Source: Acidovorax sp. Leaf160 (lineage in GTDB: Bacteria; Pseudomonadota; Gammaproteobacteria; Burkholderiales; Burkholderiaceae_C). From it: a stretch of 47,828 nucleotides of DNA. Below are positions 2,139 to 27,101 of this stretch, in pieces. The translations under genes were made by a program, and so were the position numbers. The notes under the pieces are model-generated. The model saw only the letters and a program-made list of their open reading frames with translations, was not told where the DNA came from and searched no databases. Position 1 is the stretch's first letter. The number at the start of each line of letters is the position of its first letter. Where the stretch lies: NCBI RefSeq assembly GCF_001424265.1, contig NZ_LMOV01000014.1, positions 1 to 47,828 of the forward strand, written 5' to 3'.

Positions 2139-3401
2139 ATGGAATTCCCCAAGGACCGTTCTGCCGAGCCTCTCTCACAGCCTCTTGCGCAGCAGGACCG
2201 GGAACTCACGCCTTGGGAACGGGCCCGCACATCCGAGGCGCGGCTGCGGGCCGTGCAGGCGAGCGGCTTGCTCGATTCCGTCCAGGAGCCTGGCTTCGAC
2301 AGCCTGACGGCCGTGACGGCGCGGCTGCTGAAGTGCGCGGCCTCGTTCATCTCGGTGGTGGACGGCGAGCGTGATTTCTACAAAAGCCAGCACGGCTTTC
2401 CCGAGGCGCTCGCACAGGCGAGGCAGATGCAGGGGCAGACCTTCTGCCACTTCACGCTGGACCGGGACGAGGCGCTGGTCATCCACGACACCCATTCGCG
2501 CCCGGAGTGGAAGGCCGTGCCCACCGTGCAGTCGCTCGGGGTGCGGGCCTATGTGGGGGTGCCGCTGAAGTCGGGCGGCGAGAACATCGGCAGCTTCTGC
2601 GTGATCGACACGGTGCCGCGCGACTGGACGGCCGACGAGCTGGAAACCATCCGCCAGCTGGCTGCCTCCGCCGCCCGTGAGCTGGATCTGCGCGCCGCCC
2701 TCGCTGCCGCGCGCCAGGCCGCGGCCACCGCGCGCGCGCAGGCGCTGTCGCGCGAACGGGTGCTGGCCGTGGTGGCGCACGATCTGCGGGCGCCGCTGCA
2801 GGTGATCCAGCTCAGCGCCAAGCTGCTGCAGCGCAGCGGCGGCGCGGGCGCACCGCACGAAACCGTCACCCACCGCATGCTGTCGGCCGTCGGCATGATG
2901 ACGGCGATGGTGGACAGCTTGCTGAAATCCACCGACGCCCCGCCCCACCTGCAGCCGGTGGCGGCATCCACCCTGGCGGCCGACGCGGTGGACATGATGA
3001 CGCCGATGGCCGACAAGTTCTCGATGTCGCTGGTGCAGGAAGCCCTGCCCGATGCCACGCTGCAGGTCGACTACGGCCAGCTGGTGCGGGTGCTGGGCAA
3101 CCTCATCGGCAATTCGCTCAAGTATTCGCCGGCCGGCAGCACGATCCGCGTGGCGGGAAACCGCCGGGGCGACACCATCGACATCACCGTCACCGACAAC
3201 GGCGTCGGCATGACCGACGAGGAGATGGCCCGGGCTTTCGAGCCCGGCTGGCAGAGCGAATCCGCCAAGGCACGCCAGGACGGGGTCGGCCTGGGCCTGG
3301 GCATCGTCAAGTCGCTGGTGGAAGCCAACCAGGGCCAGGTGCGGCTGGAAAGCCGGCCGGGCATGGGCACGTCAGTCACCATCAGCCTGCCCTGCAGCTG
3401 A
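2139..3401 (+). CDS. GAF-domain sensor histidine kinase, no receiver partner
   Basis: Read from the ATG at 2139 this is a 420-residue soluble sensor kinase; an in-frame ATG at 2097 would add 14 residues. There are no membrane segments. A GAF domain covers about residues 45-170 and contains the QTFCHFTL and VGVPLKSGGENIGSFCVID elements usual in cytosolic GAF kinases. The phospho-acceptor histidine is H214 in VVAHDLRAPL. It is followed by the ATPase N box (GNLIGNSLKYSP), G1 (DNGVGMT) and G2 (GVGLGLGIVKSL). No response-regulator gene is adjacent, so this is an orphan kinase whose partner lies elsewhere. The GAF ligand cannot be read from the sequence. The downstream neighbour encodes an unrelated thiamine-diphosphate enzyme. 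Confidence 0.9.
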   Translation: MEFPKDRSAEPLSQPLAQQDRELTPWERARTSEARLRAVQASGLLDSVQEPGFDSLTAVTARLLKCAASFISVVDGERDFYKSQHGFPEALAQARQMQGQTFCHFTLDRDEALVIHDTHSRPEWKAVPTVQSLGVRAYVGVPLKSGGENIGSFCVIDTVPRDWTADELETIRQLAASAARELDLRAALAAARQAAATARAQALSRERVLAVVAHDLRAPLQVIQLSAKLLQRSGGAGAPHETVTHRMLSAVGMMTAMVDSLLKSTDAPPHLQPVAASTLAADAVDMMTPMADKFSMSLVQEALPDATLQVDYGQLVRVLGNLIGNSLKYSPAGSTIRVAGNRRGDTIDITVTDNGVGMTDEEMARAFEPGWQSESAKARQDGVGLGLGIVKSLVEANQGQVRLESRPGMGTSVTISLPCS

Positions 3402-3573: not shown

Positions 3574-5328
3574 ATGACCCACCACCCAGCACATCCCGAC
3601 TCCCCTTCCCCGACAGCCACGCCGGCCCTCCGCACAGGCGGCCAGGTGCTGGTCGATCAACTGATCCTGCACGGCGTCGAGCAGCTTTTCTGCGTGCCGG
3701 GCGAAAGCTATCTGGCCGTGCTGGATGCGCTGCATGACGCCTCCATCGCCGTCACCGTCTGCCGGCAGGAGGGCGGCGCGGCCATGATGGCCGAGGCCCA
3801 GGGCAAGCTCACCGGCCGCCCGGGCATCTGCTTCGTCACCCGCGGGCCCGGCGTGACCAATGCGTCGGCCGGCATCCACATCGCGCACCAGGACTCGACG
3901 CCGCTCATCGTCTTCGCGGGCCAGGTGGCGCGCGGAGCGCTGGGCCGAGAGGCCTTCCAGGAACTCGATTACCCCGCCGTGTTCGGCACCATGGCCAAGT
4001 GGGTGGTGCAGATCGACGATGCCCGCCGGCTGCCGGAGCTCATCTCCCGCGCCTTCCACGTCGCCACGTCCGGGCGGCCCGGGCCGGTCGTCATCGCGCT
4101 GCCGGAAGACATGCTGACCGACAGCGTCCAGGTGCCGGACGCCCTGCCCTACGCCGTGACCGAAACCCATCCGGGCGCCGAGGCGCTGCGCACGCTGGCC
4201 GCGCGCCTGGCTGCGGCGGAGCGGCCGGTCGCCATTCTGGGCGGCAGCCGATGGTCCGAGGCCGCCGTGGCCGACATGATGGCCTTCGCCGACGCATGGC
4301 AGCTGCCGGTCTACTGCTCGTTCCGCCGCCAGATGCTGTTTCCGGCCAGCCACCCCAGCTACGGCGGAGACCTGGGCCTGGGCGTGAATCCCAAGCTGCT
4401 GGCCCGCATCCGGGATAGCGACCTCGTCCTACTGCTGGGCGGTCGCCTGTCGGAGATTCCATCGCAGGGCTTTGAGCTGCTGGGCATCCCCGCGCCGCAG
4501 CAGCCGCTGGTGCACGTGCACGCCGACGCCGACGAACTGGGCCGCCTCTACCGCCCCGCGCAGGCGATCCACGCCACGCCGCAGGCCTTCGCCAAGGCGC
4601 TGGCCGCCATGCCGCCCCAGGGCACCGTGCGCTGGGCCGCGCACACCCAGGCCGCGCGCGCCGAGTACCTCGCCTGGAGCGACCCGGCGCCGATCCGCAT
4701 CCCAGGCCCTTTGCAGATGGGCGAGGTCATGCAGCACCTGAAGGCCGCGCTGGCGCCCGACACCATCTTCTGCAACGGCGCCGGCAACTTCGCTACCTGG
4801 GTCCACCGCTTCTGGCCGTTCACGCACTACGCCAGCCAGCTCGCGCCGACCAGCGGATCGATGGGCTATGGCCTGCCTGCCGGCGTGGGGGCGAAACGGC
4901 TCTGGCCTGCGCGCGAGGTGGTGGTGTTCTCCGGCGACGGCGACTTCCTGATGCACGGCCAGGAGTTCGCCACCGCCGTGCAATACGGGCTGCCGTTGAT
5001 CGTCGTGCTGCTGGACAACGCCATGTACGGCACCATCCGGATGCACCAGGAGCGCGAATACCCGGGCCGCATCAGCGCCACGCAATTGAAGAACCCCGAC
5101 TTCAGGGCCTATGCCCAGGCTTTCGGCGGCCATGGCGAGCGCGTGGAGCGCACGGAAGACTTCGCCCCCGCACTGGCCCGGGCGCGGGCCAGCGGCCTGC
5201 CGAGCGTGCTGCACTGCCTGCTGGACGCGGAAGCCATCACGCCCGGCGGCACGCTGGCGGGCATCCGCAGCGCGGCGCTGGCCCGGTCGCAGGCATCCGC
5301 TGCGAATGCAAGCCAAACCGGTCTCTAG
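3574..5328 (+). CDS. Thiamine-diphosphate enzyme, acetolactate synthase-like
   Basis: The 584-residue product has the three-domain layout of the pyruvate oxidase/acetolactate synthase family: an N-terminal pyrimidine-binding domain with the catalytic glutamate (E66 in VCRQEGGAA), a central domain (about residues 205-340), and a C-terminal diphosphate-binding domain with GDGDF...N (about 454-482). True biosynthetic IlvB usually pairs with a small regulatory subunit (IlvH), and none is nearby, so a catabolic or benzoylformate-decarboxylase-like 2-keto acid role is possible. The substrate cannot be assigned. The N-terminus is proline-rich (PAHPDSPSPTATP), and no clear Shine-Dalgarno sequence supports the start; a later start is possible. 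The stop codon lies at the edge of a dispersed palindromic repeat. Confidence 0.85.
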   Translation: MTHHPAHPDSPSPTATPALRTGGQVLVDQLILHGVEQLFCVPGESYLAVLDALHDASIAVTVCRQEGGAAMMAEAQGKLTGRPGICFVTRGPGVTNASAGIHIAHQDSTPLIVFAGQVARGALGREAFQELDYPAVFGTMAKWVVQIDDARRLPELISRAFHVATSGRPGPVVIALPEDMLTDSVQVPDALPYAVTETHPGAEALRTLAARLAAAERPVAILGGSRWSEAAVADMMAFADAWQLPVYCSFRRQMLFPASHPSYGGDLGLGVNPKLLARIRDSDLVLLLGGRLSEIPSQGFELLGIPAPQQPLVHVHADADELGRLYRPAQAIHATPQAFAKALAAMPPQGTVRWAAHTQAARAEYLAWSDPAPIRIPGPLQMGEVMQHLKAALAPDTIFCNGAGNFATWVHRFWPFTHYASQLAPTSGSMGYGLPAGVGAKRLWPAREVVVFSGDGDFLMHGQEFATAVQYGLPLIVVLLDNAMYGTIRMHQEREYPGRISATQLKNPDFRAYAQAFGGHGERVERTEDFAPALARARASGLPSVLHCLLDAEAITPGGTLAGIRSAALARSQASAANASQTGL

Positions 5329-9513: not shown

Positions 9514-10422
9514 TCAGCCCCGCACGGCCATCGCCTTGCCGACTTCGGCCGTACCCTGCGCGGCGCCGCTGCCCGGCACCTGTTCGTTCGCGCGGTCGGT
9601 CACCTCGGCCAGGCGTGCCGCCAGCTGCTCGTCCGCATCGGCAGCGAGGCCGATGTGGATGCCCTGCGTCAGCGTGATGTGCGCCGCCTCGAAGCTGCCT
9701 GCGCCGGCGCAGAGAATAGTGCGGCTCGGCGCGCTCTCGTGCGCCAGCACCAGCATGGCCGGCACCACCGCTTCGGGCTTCAGCGCGGCCAGCACTTCCT
9801 CGGGCATCAGGCCTTCGGTCATGCGGGTGGCCGCGGTGGGCGCCAGGGCGTTCACGTGGATGCCGTGCTTGGCGCCTTCGATGGCCAGCGTCTGCATCAG
9901 GCCGACCTGCGCCAGCTTGGCCGCGCCGTAGTTGGCCTGACCGAAGTTGCCGTAGAGGCCGGTGGACGAGGTGGTCATGACGATGCGGCCGTACTTCTGT
10001 TCGACCATGTGTGCCCACACGGCCTTGCAGCAGTGGGCGGCGCCCATCAGGTGCACGTCCACCACCAGCCGGAAGTCCTCCATGGCCATCTTGCCGAAAG
10101 ACTTGTCGCGCAGGATGCCGGCGTTGTTGACCAGGATGTCCACCCGGCCCCAGGCGTCCACGGCCTGGGCCACCATGGCCTGCACGGCGGCGAAGTCGGT
10201 GACCGAGGCGCCGTTCGCCAGCGCCTGCCCACCCGCGGCGACGATCTCATCGACCACCGCCTGCGCGGCGGACACCGTGCCGCCGCTGCCGTCCACCGCA
10301 CCGCCCAGATCGTTGACCAGCACCCGCGCACCGCGCGCCGCCAGGGCCAGCGCATGCTGGCGGCCGAGGCCGCCGCCGGCACCCGTCACGATGGCCACGC
10401 GGCCTTGAAAGTCGAGGGACAT
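9514..10422 (-). CDS. Short-chain dehydrogenase, multifunctional-protein type
   Basis: This 302-residue SDR has the cofactor motif TGAGGGLG at residues 13-20, NNAG at 99-102 and the catalytic set S153, Y165 and K169 (YGAAK). The loop VNDLGGAVDGSGG after the first Rossmann strand is typical of the hydroxyacyl-CoA dehydrogenase domain of peroxisomal multifunctional enzyme type 2, so a 3-hydroxyacyl-CoA substrate is a reasonable guess. The last 60 residues form a tail beyond the usual SDR core and resemble the linker seen in that group. The start at 10422 is supported by GAGGAAG at a good distance. It diverges from the DUF427 gene. Exact substrate unknown. Confidence 0.88.
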   Translation of the reverse strand: MSLDFQGRVAIVTGAGGGLGRQHALALAARGARVLVNDLGGAVDGSGGTVSAAQAVVDEIVAAGGQALANGASVTDFAAVQAMVAQAVDAWGRVDILVNNAGILRDKSFGKMAMEDFRLVVDVHLMGAAHCCKAVWAHMVEQKYGRIVMTTSSTGLYGNFGQANYGAAKLAQVGLMQTLAIEGAKHGIHVNALAPTAATRMTEGLMPEEVLAALKPEAVVPAMLVLAHESAPSRTILCAGAGSFEAAHITLTQGIHIGLAADADEQLAARLAEVTDRANEQVPGSGAAQGTAEVGKAMAVRG

Positions 10423-10562
10423 GAATGAAACTTCCTCTAGGTTGACAATGACTGCCGGACTGTACGGCAGCCACCCCGCGCGACCAGTTGCCGGGGGCGA
10501 CTCCGGCAGCATCCCGTCCTGTCCATCCCTGCCCCGTTTACCCATCCCACCGAAGGAATCCC

Positions 10563-10844
10563 ATGAAAGCCACCTGGAACGGCGTCACCCTGGCCGAGAG
10601 CGACGACACCGTGCTCGTCGAGGGCAACCACTACTTTCCCGAGAGCGCCCTGCACCGCGAGCACTTCACCTTCAGCAACCACAGGACCATGTGCCCGTGG
10701 AAGGGGCAGGCCAGCTATCTGTCGGTGCTGGTGAATGGCGAAATCAACGCCGACGCCGCCTGGACCTATGCCGACCCCAAGCCCGAGGCCGAATCGATCA
10801 AGGGCCGCTACGCCTTCTGGAAGGGCGTGAAGGTCGCGCCCTGA
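10563..10844 (+). CDS. DUF427 family protein
   Basis: The 93-residue product matches the DUF427 family of small single-domain beta-rich proteins: an N-terminal MKATWNGVTLAES, then YFPESALHREHF, and the conserved TMCPWKGQASY block. The function of the family is not established. The start is supported by GAAGGAAT just upstream. It diverges from the SDR gene, and 36 bases after its stop the DnaA-box repeat block begins. Confidence 0.9.
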   Translation: MKATWNGVTLAESDDTVLVEGNHYFPESALHREHFTFSNHRTMCPWKGQASYLSVLVNGEINADAAWTYADPKPEAESIKGRYAFWKGVKVAP

Positions 10845-10906
10845 CCGAGCGCTGCCCAGCGGCGCACTGCGGGGCCCGGCTTATCCCTGTCTGCACTGGA
10901 CAATCA

Positions 10907-10915
10907 TGTGGATAA
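10907..10915 (-). promoter_or_regulatory. DnaA box, unit 1
   Basis: TGTGGATAA on the plus strand, i.e. the perfect DnaA box TTATCCACA on the minus strand. A half-match TTATCC lies in opposite orientation 26 bases earlier (10881), and an IHF-type site lies at 10943-10955, 27 bases beyond the box. Confidence 0.75.
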
Positions 10916-11044
10916 GCCGGCACAACTGCTGTATGACAACGCCAAGTCATTGATTTGCAAGGCAGTCGCACGCACTGCTTAAAATTAAGGCAGCACCGGC
11001 TTGGCGCTCGGACCCGGGTTATCCCTGGGTTCATTGGACAATCA

Positions 11045-11053
11045 TGTGGATAA
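11045..11053 (-). promoter_or_regulatory. DnaA box, unit 2
   Basis: Perfect TTATCCACA on the minus strand, with the opposed half-match TTATCC at 11019 (again 26 bases earlier) and an IHF-type site at 11081-11093 (again 27 bases beyond the box). Confidence 0.75.
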
Positions 11054-11178
11054 CTCTGAACAAGCGCTGTATGACAAACCTAAGTCATTGATTTGCAAAC
11101 AGCTTCGTTCTACTGCCCAAAAAAAAGGCACCGCTGTCCACAGGCACGCGGCTTATCCCTCGACTCACTGGACAATCA

Positions 11179-11187
11179 TGTGGATAA
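11179..11187 (-). promoter_or_regulatory. DnaA box, unit 3
   Basis: Perfect TTATCCACA on the minus strand, with the opposed half-match TTATCC at 11153 and an IHF-type site at 11215-11227. Spacing is identical to the other two units. Confidence 0.75.
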
Positions 11188-11305
11188 GTCTGCACAAGCC
11201 TTGTATGACAGCGCCAAGTCATTGATTCACAAAGGGTTCACATGGATTGCCTCATTTTTGGGCAGACCACGGGAACGGCTGGTCGTGACGCTACAGCCAT
11301 GCCAA

Positions 11306-11326
11306 TTGCTACTACTTTTATAGCAA
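11306..11326. repeat. TTGCTA..TAGCAA palindrome
   Basis: TTGCTA at 11306-11311 pairs with TAGCAA at 11321-11326 around an AT-rich loop. The ends resemble the GCTAT..ATAGC palindromes at 5352 and 27152. It lies between the DnaA-box block and the ferredoxin gene and may end transcription entering from the left. Confidence 0.5.
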
Positions 11327-11394
11327 CAAACCCTTATGGATTCAGCGCAATAGCCTGATTTCCACCTTCAACACCCGCACCCCCCCCGCTGCCC

Positions 11395-11697
11395 ATGGCC
11401 GACACCGCAAACGCCGCCCCACCCTTCTTCATCGCCCGTGTGGGCGACGATGGCACGCAGTGCGATGCCTGGCCCGAACAAACCCTGCTGGAGTCACTGG
11501 AGCAAGGTGGCATCGACTGGCCCAGCTCGTGCCGCAACGGCACCTGCCGCACCTGCATCGGCATGCTCGCCGAGGGCACCGTGCACTACCGCATCGACTG
11601 GCCGGGCGTCACCCGGGAAGAGCAGGCCGAGGGTTGCGTGCTGCCCTGCGTGGCCTACCCCGCCAGCGACCTGCGCCTCGAACCGCAGGGCATTTGA
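11395..11697 (+). CDS. Plant-type 2Fe-2S ferredoxin
   Basis: This 100-residue protein binds one [2Fe-2S] cluster through C46, C51 and C54 (CRNGTCRTC) and a distal cysteine, most likely C85 in VLPCVAYP. The cysteine pattern C-x4-C-x2-C is that of plant-type ferredoxins, and the length fits a stand-alone electron carrier. The fold-typical segment [16 protein letters not shown] precedes the cluster. It stands alone, 200 bases before ribBA, so its electron partner cannot be named from context. The start at 11395 has no strong Shine-Dalgarno sequence, but no better start exists. Confidence 0.9.
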
Positions 11698-11759
11698 CCC
11701 GGCAGCTGGCCCGCACCCACTGCAGGGGCCGGCTCGCTGGAATAGAATCGCCCGCTTCA

Positions 11760-11778
11760 CGGGAGCGCAGCGCTCCCG
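11760..11778 (+). promoter_or_regulatory. Perfect hairpin in the ribBA leader
   Basis: CGGGAGCG and CGCTCCCG form an 8-bp perfect stem with a three-base loop (CAG). It lies 12 bases after TAGAAT (11743-11748), a possible -10 element, and 119 bases before ribBA. No T-run follows, so it is not a classical terminator. I looked for FMN-riboswitch core sequences here and found none. Confidence 0.5.
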
Positions 11779-11897
11779 CACCGTGCGGCCCTGCCGCGAC
11801 GCCTGTTCTTTGGGTGGCTCCCCGCGCGAGCCGGCCGCCGCCCGCCGGGAACACGCGCCGCACCCCGGCCGTGCGGCCCTCTCGAAAGCCCCCCGTC

Positions 11898-24388: not shown

Positions 24389-25215
24389 CCAGCGAGGCGC
24401 TCACGGGCGCCGGCCCTCGCGGCCGGCGCTCCACCCTGATCCAAGCGGTGCTCATCCTGGTGGGCATCGCTTTGTTTTTGGGGTTCATCGCCCTGGGTAG
24501 CTGGCAGGTGCAACGGCGCGCCTGGAAGCTCGAGCTGATCGAGCGCGTGGACCGCCGGGTGCACTCGGCACCCGTCGCCCTGCCCCCCGTGGCCGAATGG
24601 CCGCGCGTGGATGCCGCCGGCTACGAATATCTTCCCGTCGCCGCCACCGGCCGCTGGCTGGCGGACAAGACCGTGCTGACCCAGGCGGTGACCGACCTGG
24701 GCGCCGGTTTCTGGGTGCTTACGCCCCTCGCGCGCGACGACGGCACCCAGGTGCTGGTCAACCGAGGGTTCATTCCCGCCGAACAGCGTGCCCAGTGGCA
24801 AGGCGGCGCCGGGCTTGGCGGCACCCCGGACCCGGACCCGGTCACGGTGCAGGGGCTGCTGCGCCTCAGCGAACCGGGCGGCGGCTTCCTCAGGCGCAAC
24901 GATCCGGCCGCCCAGCGCTGGCATTCGCGCGACGTCGCGGCCATCGCGGCGGCGCAGGGGCTGCCGAACGCCGCGCCGTTCTTCATCGATGCCGGGCTGC
25001 CCGGCTCGCCCGTCGCGGCGGCAGGCAACGCCAGCTCCTGGCCCCGGGCCGGAATGACGGTGATCCGGTTTGCCAACAGCCATCTGGTGTATGCCCTCAC
25101 CTGGTTCGGGCTGGCACTGATGACGGTCATCGCCGGGGTGTACGTGGCACGATACGAGCGGCGTCGAAACGCCGGCTCCGCTGCCGCTTCCACCTTCCAT
25201 GACACCGCCCCCTGA
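24385..25215 (+). CDS. SURF1-family oxidase assembly protein
   Basis: The 276-residue product has the SURF1 layout: an N-terminal membrane helix ending in LGSWQVQRRAWK (the conserved GxWQxxR), a periplasmic domain, and a second helix near the C-terminus (LVYALTWFGLALMTVIAGVYVARYERRR). SURF1 proteins help insert haem into haem-copper oxidases. No ATG is available; TTG at 24385, inside cTTGAc overlapping the cyoD stop, is the only plausible start, as in nusB. Its place in the cyo operon implies service to the bo3 oxidase. It overlaps the regB-like kinase by 17 bases. Confidence 0.9.
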   Translation: MTSEALTGAGPRGRRSTLIQAVLILVGIALFLGFIALGSWQVQRRAWKLELIERVDRRVHSAPVALPPVAEWPRVDAAGYEYLPVAATGRWLADKTVLTQAVTDLGAGFWVLTPLARDDGTQVLVNRGFIPAEQRAQWQGGAGLGGTPDPDPVTVQGLLRLSEPGGGFLRRNDPAAQRWHSRDVAAIAAAQGLPNAAPFFIDAGLPGSPVAAAGNASSWPRAGMTVIRFANSHLVYALTWFGLALMTVIAGVYVARYERRRNAGSAAASTFHDTAP

Positions 25216-26575
25216 CACCCTACCCTCCGCGAACGCTTCCGCACCGCCCGCGCCCATCCCTGCGGTGCGCAAGGCGCAGGCCGCCAACACGGCAGCAGGC
25301 CTGAAGAACCTGCAGCAGCTGATCCAGCTGCGCTGGCTCGCAGTGATCGGCCAGGTGTTCACCATCGAAGTCGCCCACTACACGCTGGCCCTGGCCGTGC
25401 CGGTGGGCGAGATGCTGATGGTGGTGGGCTGTCTGGCACTCTTCAACGGGGTCAGCCACCTGCGCTGGCGCACCGGGCACCGGGTACAGCATGTCGAGCT
25501 GTTCCTGGCGCTGCTCATCGACGTGGCGGTGCTCACGGTGCAGCTCTACCTGAGCGGCGGCACCGGCAACCCCTTCGTCTTCCTGTACCTCCTGCAGATC
25601 GCGCTCGGCGCGGTGCTGCTGCGCGGGGGGTACATCTGGTCGATCGTGCTGATCACGGCGCTGTGCTTCACCGCCCTATCGCGCCACCACCTGCCCCTGC
25701 CCGCCACGCCCGACCTGCACCAGGGCGCGCCGAGCCTCTACACCCAGGGCCTGCTGGTGTGCTTTCTGCTCAATGCGATCCTGGTGGTGATCTTCATCAC
25801 ACGCATCGGCCGCAATCTGCGCCAGCGCGATGCCCGCCTCGCGTCGGCACGGCAGCGGGCGGCGGAAGAGGAACACATCGTGCGCATGGGGCTGCTCGCC
25901 TCCGGCGCGGCGCACGAGCTGGGTACGCCGCTCTCCACCATGGCGGTGATCCTGGGCGACTGGAAGCACGACCCGCTGCTGTCTGGCCACCCTGGCCTGA
26001 AGGGCGAAGTCGCCGAGATGCAGGCGCAGGTGAAACGCTGCAAGAGCATCGTCAGCGGCATCCTGCTGTCGGCAGGCGAAACCCGGGGCGAGGAGTCTGC
26101 GGAGACCACCGTCTGCCAGTTCGCCGACCGCCTGGCCCACGACTGGCAGGCCACGCGCTCGGTGGCGGAATTCCGCTATGCCAACCGCTTCGGCGCGGAC
26201 GCAGCCATGGTGGCCGACACCACGCTGGAGCAAATGGTTTTCAATGTGCTGGACAATGCCCGCGACGCCTCGCCCGGGCGGGTGGAGCTGGTGGTCGACC
26301 GCATCGCCGACACCCTGCGCATCACCGTCACCGATGCCGGGCCGGGGTTCGATCCCGCCATCCTGTCGCGGCTGGGCAAGCCCTATCAGTCGACCAAGGG
26401 GCGCGCGGGCGGCGGCCTGGGGCTGTTCCTGGCGATGACCGTCGCGCGCACGCTGGGCGGCAGCCTGGTGGCCCGCAACCGGCCGGAAGGCGGGGCCGAA
26501 GTCGTCATCCAACTGCCTTTGGCGGCCATCGCGCTGCCGGAACCTGGAGCCTCGCATCACCATGGAACCCACTGA
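25199..26575 (+). CDS. regB: Redox-sensing histidine kinase, RegB/PrrB/ActS type
   Basis: This 458-residue membrane kinase has about six N-terminal helices (residues 40-205) and a cytoplasmic kinase core. It keeps the marks of the RegB family: the ubiquinone-sensing heptapeptide GGTGNPF at residues 120-126, the phospho-acceptor H239 in GAAHELGTPLSTMAV, and the redox-active cysteine C281 in VKRCKSIVSGIL. The ATPase N box (VFNVLDNARDASPG) and G boxes (DAGPGFD, GGGLGLFLAM) follow. In Rhodobacter RegB reports the redox state of the quinone pool. Encoded directly behind a quinol oxidase and overlapping regA by 14 bases, it probably controls respiratory genes, including this operon; that last point is inference. 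Confidence 0.93.
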   Translation: MTPPPDTLPSANASAPPAPIPAVRKAQAANTAAGLKNLQQLIQLRWLAVIGQVFTIEVAHYTLALAVPVGEMLMVVGCLALFNGVSHLRWRTGHRVQHVELFLALLIDVAVLTVQLYLSGGTGNPFVFLYLLQIALGAVLLRGGYIWSIVLITALCFTALSRHHLPLPATPDLHQGAPSLYTQGLLVCFLLNAILVVIFITRIGRNLRQRDARLASARQRAAEEEHIVRMGLLASGAAHELGTPLSTMAVILGDWKHDPLLSGHPGLKGEVAEMQAQVKRCKSIVSGILLSAGETRGEESAETTVCQFADRLAHDWQATRSVAEFRYANRFGADAAMVADTTLEQMVFNVLDNARDASPGRVELVVDRIADTLRITVTDAGPGFDPAILSRLGKPYQSTKGRAGGGLGLFLAMTVARTLGGSLVARNRPEGGAEVVIQLPLAAIALPEPGASHHHGTH

Positions 26576-27101
26576 CCGGCTGCTGCTCATCGTCGAGGAC
26601 GACGACGCCTTCGCGCGCACCCTGGCGCGCTCTTTCGAGCGGCGGGGCTACCGCGTGCTGCAGGCCGACAGCCTCACCGCGCTCGACAGCGTGCTGGCCG
26701 AGCACACGCCGGGCTACGCCGTCGTGGACCTGAAGCTCAAGGGCGAGGCCTCGGGCCTGGCCTGCGTGCAGAAGCTGCATGCCCACGACGAAGACATGCT
26801 CATCGTCGTGCTGACGGGCTTCGCCAGCATCGCCACCGCCGTCGAGGCCGTGAAGCTGGGCGCCTGCCACTACCTCGCCAAGCCCTCCAACACCGATGAC
26901 ATCGAGGCCGCCTTCGGCTTGTCGGAAGGCAATGCCGACGTGGAGCTCACCAACCGCTCCAGCTCCATCAAGACGCTGGAGTGGGAACGCATCCACGAGG
27001 TGCTGGCCGAGACCGATTTCAACATTTCGGAAGCTGCACGGCGCCTGGGCATGCACCGGCGCACCCTCACGCGCAAGCTGGAAAAGCGGCAGGTCAGCTG
27101 A
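26562..27101 (+). CDS. regA: Response regulator, RegA/PrrA/ActR type
   Basis: The 179-residue product has an N-terminal receiver domain (acidic pocket VEDDD near residue 10, phospho-acceptor D56 in VVDLKLKGEASGL, K at CHYLAKPSN) and a Fis-type C-terminal helix-turn-helix (NISEAARRLGMHRRTLTRKL). The latter is almost the invariant RegA DNA-binding sequence. It is the cognate partner of the overlapping RegB kinase. The linker between domains lacks the proline run often seen in alphaproteobacterial RegA. It is the last gene of the cyo-SURF1-reg run and is followed by a palindromic repeat. Confidence 0.94.
   Translation: MEPTDRLLLIVEDDDAFARTLARSFERRGYRVLQADSLTALDSVLAEHTPGYAVVDLKLKGEASGLACVQKLHAHDEDMLIVVLTGFASIATAVEAVKLGACHYLAKPSNTDDIEAAFGLSEGNADVELTNRSSSIKTLEWERIHEVLAETDFNISEAARRLGMHRRTLTRKLEKRQVS

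Follow-up and report, generated by a model that had tools for sequence, protein, structure and literature searches.

A non-coding stretch on the side of the vitamin B2 gene ribBA in Acidovorax sp. Leaf160 carries three head-to-tail units of about 116 bp each, at positions 10879-11265 of the window, that is, of the whole analysed stretch of 47,828 nucleotides. The immediate neighbours of this array are a DUF427 gene and a ferredoxin gene, with ribBA next. Each unit holds predicted DnaA boxes (A to D), an IHF consensus and a TGC...GCA palindrome resembling a Fis site. In the list below, unit scores come from R1, a 118-position model built from 62 units, those of the window among them; box scores are matches to eight consensus positions, and the proposed roles refer to boxes I to III of the DnaA-reactivating (DARS) loci of E. 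coli.

10563 to 10844, plus strand: DUF427 gene, context, left of the array
10879 to 10993, plus strand: unit 1, R1 model positions 2-116, 90.3 bits; the unit belongs to the R1 training set
10881 to 10889, plus strand: unit 1 box A, TTATCCCTG, 5 of 8 consensus positions, proposed DARS box I
10895 to 10903, minus strand: unit 1 box B, TTGTCCAGT, 5 of 8, proposed DARS box II, 14 bp after A (start to start)
10907 to 10915, minus strand: unit 1 box C, perfect TTATCCACA, proposed DARS box III, 12 bp after B
10917 to 10925, minus strand: unit 1 box D, 4 of 8, alternative box III
10943 to 10955, minus strand: unit 1 IHF consensus WATCAANNNNTTR, perfect, predicted from sequence
10976 to 10992, no strand: unit 1 palindrome TGC...GCA, Fis-like, 5 of 6 consensus positions
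11017 to 11131, plus strand: unit 2, R1, 85.9 bits
11019 to 11027, plus strand: unit 2 box A, 5 of 8
11033 to 11041, minus strand: unit 2 box B, 5 of 8
11045 to 11053, minus strand: unit 2 box C, perfect TTATCCACA
11055 to 11063, minus strand: unit 2 box D, 6 of 8, alternative box III
11081 to 11093, minus strand: unit 2 IHF consensus, perfect, predicted
11114 to 11130, no strand: unit 2 palindrome TGC...GCA, Fis-like, 5 of 6
11151 to 11265, plus strand: unit 3, R1, 90.1 bits
11153 to 11161, plus strand: unit 3 box A, 5 of 8
11167 to 11175, minus strand: unit 3 box B, 5 of 8
11179 to 11187, minus strand: unit 3 box C, perfect TTATCCACA
11189 to 11197, minus strand: unit 3 box D, 6 of 8, alternative box III
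11215 to 11227, minus strand: unit 3 IHF consensus, perfect, predicted
11248 to 11264, no strand: unit 3 palindrome TGC...GCA, Fis-like, 5 of 6
11395 to 11697, plus strand: 2Fe-2S ferredoxin gene, conserved neighbour, right of the array, with ribBA next

The coordinates and spacings given in the preliminary description of this DNA are correct. The perfect boxes start at 10907, 11045 and 11179 on the minus strand and, in all three units and without gaps, an opposed TTATCC lies 26 bp before the perfect box (start to start) and 27 bp separate that box from the perfect IHF consensus. Around the perfect box, the 19-mer TGGACAATCATGTGGATAA occurs in three exact copies in the window, with no further window match at up to three mismatches and 0 in 100 shuffles. 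The unit had been described as 80 bp long, with unrelated spacers between the copies. The alignment of related units instead extends conservation to position ~114, giving a unit of ~116 bp, and the spacers hold one more conserved site, the 17-bp TGC...GCA palindrome, at a fixed distance past the IHF site. No Rfam match to 10400-11800 was found up to E 0.1, and a structured RNA was rejected as a reading on that ground. A scan of 10845-11394 found no sigma-70-like promoter, other promoter types lying outside its coverage, and the one terminator-like site (11008-10992, minus strand) is uninformative given a shuffle mean of 0.6. Elsewhere in the window, at 25199-27101, reading by eye identified a sensor kinase together with a response regulator of the RegA type whose helix-turn-helix belongs to the Fis family; there is a PF02954 match at 26970-27086.

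Conservation was assessed on 100 distinct units from related genomes, obtained from 104 hits of an nhmmer search in which identical cores were counted once. The offsets are fixed across the 100 extracted units: TTATCC stands at its place in 86 of them, TGTGGATAA in 81, the predicted IHF site in 85 (and perfect in all three window units) and the TGC...GCA palindrome in 93. At the palindrome, the Fis consensus GnnYAnnnnnTRnnC is matched at 6 of 6 positions in 32 of the 100 units and at 5 of 6 or better in 80, each window unit having 5 of 6. A minus-strand half-box, GGACAA, precedes the perfect box in 84 of the 100, while a downstream copy is found in 29. The columns flanking the unit carry little information (75 units, near-duplicates removed).

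Within its own genome the array stands alone by BLAST, which returned no second copy and only chance-level short matches. It is therefore not a dispersed repeat of the kind that would have spoken against a dedicated locus, and an ordinary repeat family was rejected as an explanation. R1 detects one further, degenerate place in this genome (C28:292372). A second model, R2, rests on 31 units, of which 30 come from other genomes and one comes from this second locus, and includes no window and no E. coli sequence; of its six own-genome matches, those placed are the three window units, C28:292372 and a weaker one beside the latter. The second locus (C28:292372-292471), between hemE and priA, is degenerate and DARS-like, with two cores (L254 2873-2972 and 3255-3297). 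The dnaA gene lies on a different contig from the window array.

Sixteen of the 17 genomes of the genus, the present one included, carry the array. Loss of the boxes in close relatives, which had been named as a point against the proposal, is thus seen in one genome only (G013), which has no R1 match either. There the neighbouring ferredoxin is also without a match at E 1e-15, so that the segment may have been lost or may fall in a gap of the assembly. At the family level, BLAST matches 37 of 299 genomes and R1, at E 1e-3, 212 of 399 genomes and 93 of 141 genera, the E-values of R1 and R2 being rough by the tool's own statement. In the order-level search 48 of 300 genomes match, our own and three family members included, and the matches outside the family are weak (~31 bits or less), many of them partial. 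An exact-pattern scan of named genomes yielded 53 stretches, mainly from Acidovorax and Paracidovorax and also from Extensimonas, Giesbergeria, Alicycliphilus, Diaphorobacter, Simplicispira, Ottowia and Hydrogenophaga. Neither 72,556 plasmid records nor 50,697 phage records gave a blastn match at E 1e-5.

The form of the array is regular across 45 loci (46 searched, the duplicate L026 dropped), which contain one to seven units each and never units on mixed strands (0 of 45). In 43 of 57 pairs of consecutive units the starts are separated by 124/125 bp (20 cases) or by 134/135 bp (23 cases), two classes that differ by about one helical turn. Among 20 loci whose surroundings were fetched (L101-L120), 17 have the array upstream of ferredoxin and ribBA and in the same orientation as these genes; the exceptions are the single units L102 and L103 and a four-unit array elsewhere in the genome G162. 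In L102 and L103, both from our genus, the single divergent unit lies upstream of nadE as read by eye, and a Pfam scan of one frame at the presumed nadE gave no match; a single divergent unit upstream of a Pfam-confirmed nadE is present in L261 (genus g19). In 16 genomes with checked context and both features on one contig, the array lies 0.30-0.47 of the contig from dnaA. The second array of G162 lies at 0.08, and G034 has two arrays, at 0.15 and 0.37. On the same scale, and with the positions of oriC, DARS1 and datA that we assume for E. coli, DARS1 is at 0.33, DARS2 at 0.21 and datA at 0.10. Location is given as distance from dnaA only, because the E. coli-type dif pattern, sought as a marker of the terminus, had 0 matches in 22 genomes at 3 mismatches.

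The arrangement of the boxes recalls the cores of the E. coli DARS loci. On L194 the DARS1 core has its boxes at 5108(+), 5122(-) and 5134(-), and on L139 that of DARS2 has them at 3136(+), 3150(-) and 3162(-); both have the order + - - and start-to-start distances of 14 and 12 bp. The DARS2 position agrees with published deletion primers (PMC4585315). Boxes A(+), B(-) and C(-) of the window have the same 14 and 12 bp as DARS I/II/III. In DARS, boxes I and II are opposed, permitting head-to-head contact of DnaA (PMC8682772; PMC5742627).

This likeness was noticed first, and 273 spacings were scanned afterwards. In 44 dispersed or other-family units, 14/12 came out at the top (18.57; next 16.73; mean 13.6, sd 0.97). 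It was also at the top in the 100 Comamonadaceae-type units, with 17.87 versus 17.64 for the combination A-C-D (26/10), a narrow margin, so that the 14/12 reading rests mainly on other genera. DARS core spacing and orientation are accordingly clear in the 44 other units and marginal in the Comamonadaceae type. Because box B (5, 5 and 5 of 8) and box D (4, 6 and 6 of 8) score nearly equally in the window, the window units alone cannot choose between A-B-C and A-C-D, whereas in units L242 and L244 of genus g40 B is the better box, which favours A-B-C. Box III and the IHF site are 36 bp apart in the Comamonadaceae type; in the other set 26 bp is the commonest value (25 of 44), one helical turn less.

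Trained without any E. coli sequence, R2 retrieves both E. coli cores: DARS2 at L139 3135-3185 (20.7 bits, E 4e-5) and DARS1 at L194 5107-5153 (20.4 bits, E 5e-5), the match covering the core only. datA is matched weakly (13.4 bits, E 0.008; model 12-54), box I being absent from the match. The window units score 48.4, 45.4 and 42.1 bits, a retrieval that is only partly independent since the R2 training units were found with R1, which holds the window units; the E. coli retrieval is independent. Unit 3 is aligned from box C on (model 16), which is compatible with A-B-C or A-C-D. A 35-bp core matrix made from 27 units gives 30.6 for DARS2 and 29.7 for DARS1 versus a maximum of 20.4 in 200 shuffles, 19.0 for datA, not far below that maximum, and 25.1, 23.2 and 18.6 for the window units. 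A second site with DARS-core geometry was observed near DARS2 (L139 3451-3487; E. coli K-12 2969450-2969486), with 17.4 bits in R2 and 30.8 in the core matrix.

Beyond the order, R2 at E 1e-3 or lower matches 279 of 369 genomes of the class, often in the core only, and has no match in the other 90; as the search was confined to the class, some of these matches may be generic DnaA-box clusters. We inspected 58 loci from the top of the list (L305-L362, mostly one per genome; L303, from our own genome, and L304 were left out), and 14 of them lie immediately upstream of priA, all 14 on the strand opposite to it (L306, L313, L314, L319, L322, L324, L325, L330, L338, L340, L345, L353, L359 and L362). 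PriA domains were confirmed by Pfam in the two priA loci scanned and in our own genome. The E. coli priA region has no R2 match, so this location is not common to E. coli. At the class level the best IHF offset is again 26 bp from box III (mean 5.44 of 9, against a median of 3.12 over offsets), a result that is partly circular because R2 holds IHF columns; 9 of 57 loci, one of the 58 having been dropped for a core score <25, have at least 8 of 9 matches there. Other placements were seen as well. Clusters of DARS-like modules occur upstream of xseA, the gene of the exonuclease VII large subunit, in three genomes of families f8 and f32 (L251, L252 and L253), and in a fourth genome between aconitase B and transaldolase genes (L250). 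In genus g272, two loci (L305 and L307) have DARS-like cores towards the other end of a rib-type gene cluster, beside genes taken by eye to be thiL, nusB and pgpA. One g40 genome has related modules at four dispersed places.

The partner proteins that such modules would call for were also considered. IHF is presumed to be available in the host. Hda was found over the cut-off in 10 of 10 genomes, our own included. Our genome also encodes a 77-aa protein of the Fis family between dusB and purH (neighbours read by eye). Against NF002517 this protein scores 122.1, just above the cut-off of 122; its score of 78.1 against NF001659, the E. coli-type Fis model, falls short of the cut-off of 99.

Taken together, these observations suggest that the array is a chromosomal, compact tandem locus of the DARS2 type that would reactivate ADP-DnaA, a reading to which we give a probability of roughly two in three. 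The preliminary description had proposed a datA- or DARS-like control locus, and the analysis bears this out with the DARS side favoured, on account of box orientation and spacing, the order core-IHF-palindrome and the retrieval by R2 of both DARS cores and only weakly of datA. In each unit, ADP-DnaA would occupy box A (+) and boxes B and C (-). As boxes A and B face each other, like DARS I and II in E. coli, a pair of AAA+ domains could come into head-to-head contact, with release of ADP. IHF would bend the DNA just past the core; the palindrome could receive a Fis-like protein that gives the complex stability and links it to growth. Apo-DnaA would then depart and reload with ATP, providing more ATP-DnaA for the next initiation at oriC, and the three head-to-tail copies may raise capacity or cooperativity. 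What we infer from the sequence is that the proteins bind, that ADP is released, that initiation is affected and that the number of copies plays a part.

The opposite effect on DnaA would follow if the array were datA-like, with DnaA and IHF stimulating hydrolysis of DnaA-bound ATP and repressing initiation. Such a function is conceivable because datA, with five boxes and one IHF site (PMC4585315), also uses DnaA boxes plus IHF, the array has perfect examples of both, and datA gives some signal with R2 and the core matrix (13.4 bits and 19.0, respectively). Its box order does not fit, however: the opposed I/II boxes and the 14/12 spacing agree with DARS1 and DARS2 and not with datA, whose match begins without box I, and nothing in datA as described corresponds to the Fis-like palindrome, so we regard a datA-like locus as unlikely. 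A site that merely binds and buffers DnaA without nucleotide exchange would account for clustered boxes of presumed high affinity, three of them perfect, away from dnaA. Titration needs good boxes alone, though, and leaves the fixed spacing, the orientation, the IHF site and the palindrome across genera unexplained, which makes it quite improbable.

Control of ferredoxin-ribBA transcription in cis by bound DnaA and IHF is suggested by the upstream, co-oriented position of the array in 17 of 20 loci, and we hold it to be very improbable given the related modules beside nadE (L261), xseA and priA and at the four dispersed places of the g40 genome, and a promoter scan that, within its sigma-70-like coverage, was empty. 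The preliminary description had also considered the relic of a plasmid origin. The iteron-like direct repeats would suit this origin or an ordinary mobile repeat, but the array adjoins ferredoxin and ribBA in many genera, plasmid and phage records are without a blastn match at E 1e-5 and BLAST finds no other copy in the genome; we give this explanation next to no credence.

For the DARS2-type reading, the wider distribution allows a historical account that we offer tentatively, with the odds somewhat against it. DARS-type modules, consisting of a core and an IHF site at a fixed distance, may be ancient in the class Gammaproteobacteria (in the GTDB sense, including Burkholderiales), with the region upstream of priA as one old site. 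Comamonadaceae relatives would have amplified a compact DARS2-like module to form tandem arrays beside ferredoxin-ribBA, and E. coli DARS1 and DARS2 would be relocated, reduced survivors.

To our knowledge, the regeneration of ATP-DnaA has been worked out for DARS1 and DARS2 of E. coli and not elsewhere. DARS loci in E. coli and its relatives are known, and the compact tandem form in Comamonadaceae, as predicted here, appears to be new. As far as we found, the literature has no description of a tandem, compact DARS form or of a DARS in Comamonadaceae, no title on DARS outside E. coli and its relatives, and no paper joining DARS with Betaproteobacteria or Comamonas. PMC4245941 associates the core of DARS2, and Fis as well, with relatives of E. 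coli among the gamma-proteobacteria. The claim that no such locus is described in this group therefore stands as far as titles go and needs qualifying in view of a passage of one review that extends the conservation of DARS2 spacing to 'beta- or gamma-' (PMC5742627); one review names Burkholderia too. The one to seven copies per locus offer a natural series for relating DARS dosage to initiation, and a sequence model makes such loci predictable in many genomes. If the placement upstream of priA holds, it would be a new link to the gene of the replication-restart helicase.

Among the known systems, the oriC region of the family, upstream of dnaA, likewise has perfect and near-perfect DnaA boxes, but its two boxes are about 50 bp apart. 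A copy of oriC was rejected: in 18 stretches located around dnaA or at the ends of contigs, no hit of the unit profile had an E-value below 0.33. E. coli datA, compared at the position that we take it to have, shares the combination of DnaA boxes with an IHF consensus and differs in box order and spacing: its R2 match starts after box I, and the window units do not have the datA-type box order around the IHF site. DARS1, which we take to lie between bioD and uvrB, shares the 14/12 core geometry and orientation, whereas the window module carries IHF and palindrome sites in addition; DARS1 functions without a protein factor (PMC4585315). The closest comparison is with DARS2. It differs in not being packed into ~116 bp and repeated head to tail, here three times, in lying beside mutH and not beside ferredoxin-ribBA, and in lacking the degeneracy of boxes A and B seen in the window. 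The gap between core and IHF site is 27 bp here and ~58 bp in E. coli by our own placing of IBS1, so the window units do not match this spacing; IBS1-2 were placed as two one-mismatch sites 3 bp apart, a separation taken from PMC4245941. Shared with DARS2 are an intergenic position far from oriC, the three-box core + - - with 14 and 12 bp on the A-B-C reading, and an IHF site, predicted here, on the box III side of the core. In DARS2 the order continues with Fis (PMC4245941), and in the window units the Fis-like palindrome stands at that place.
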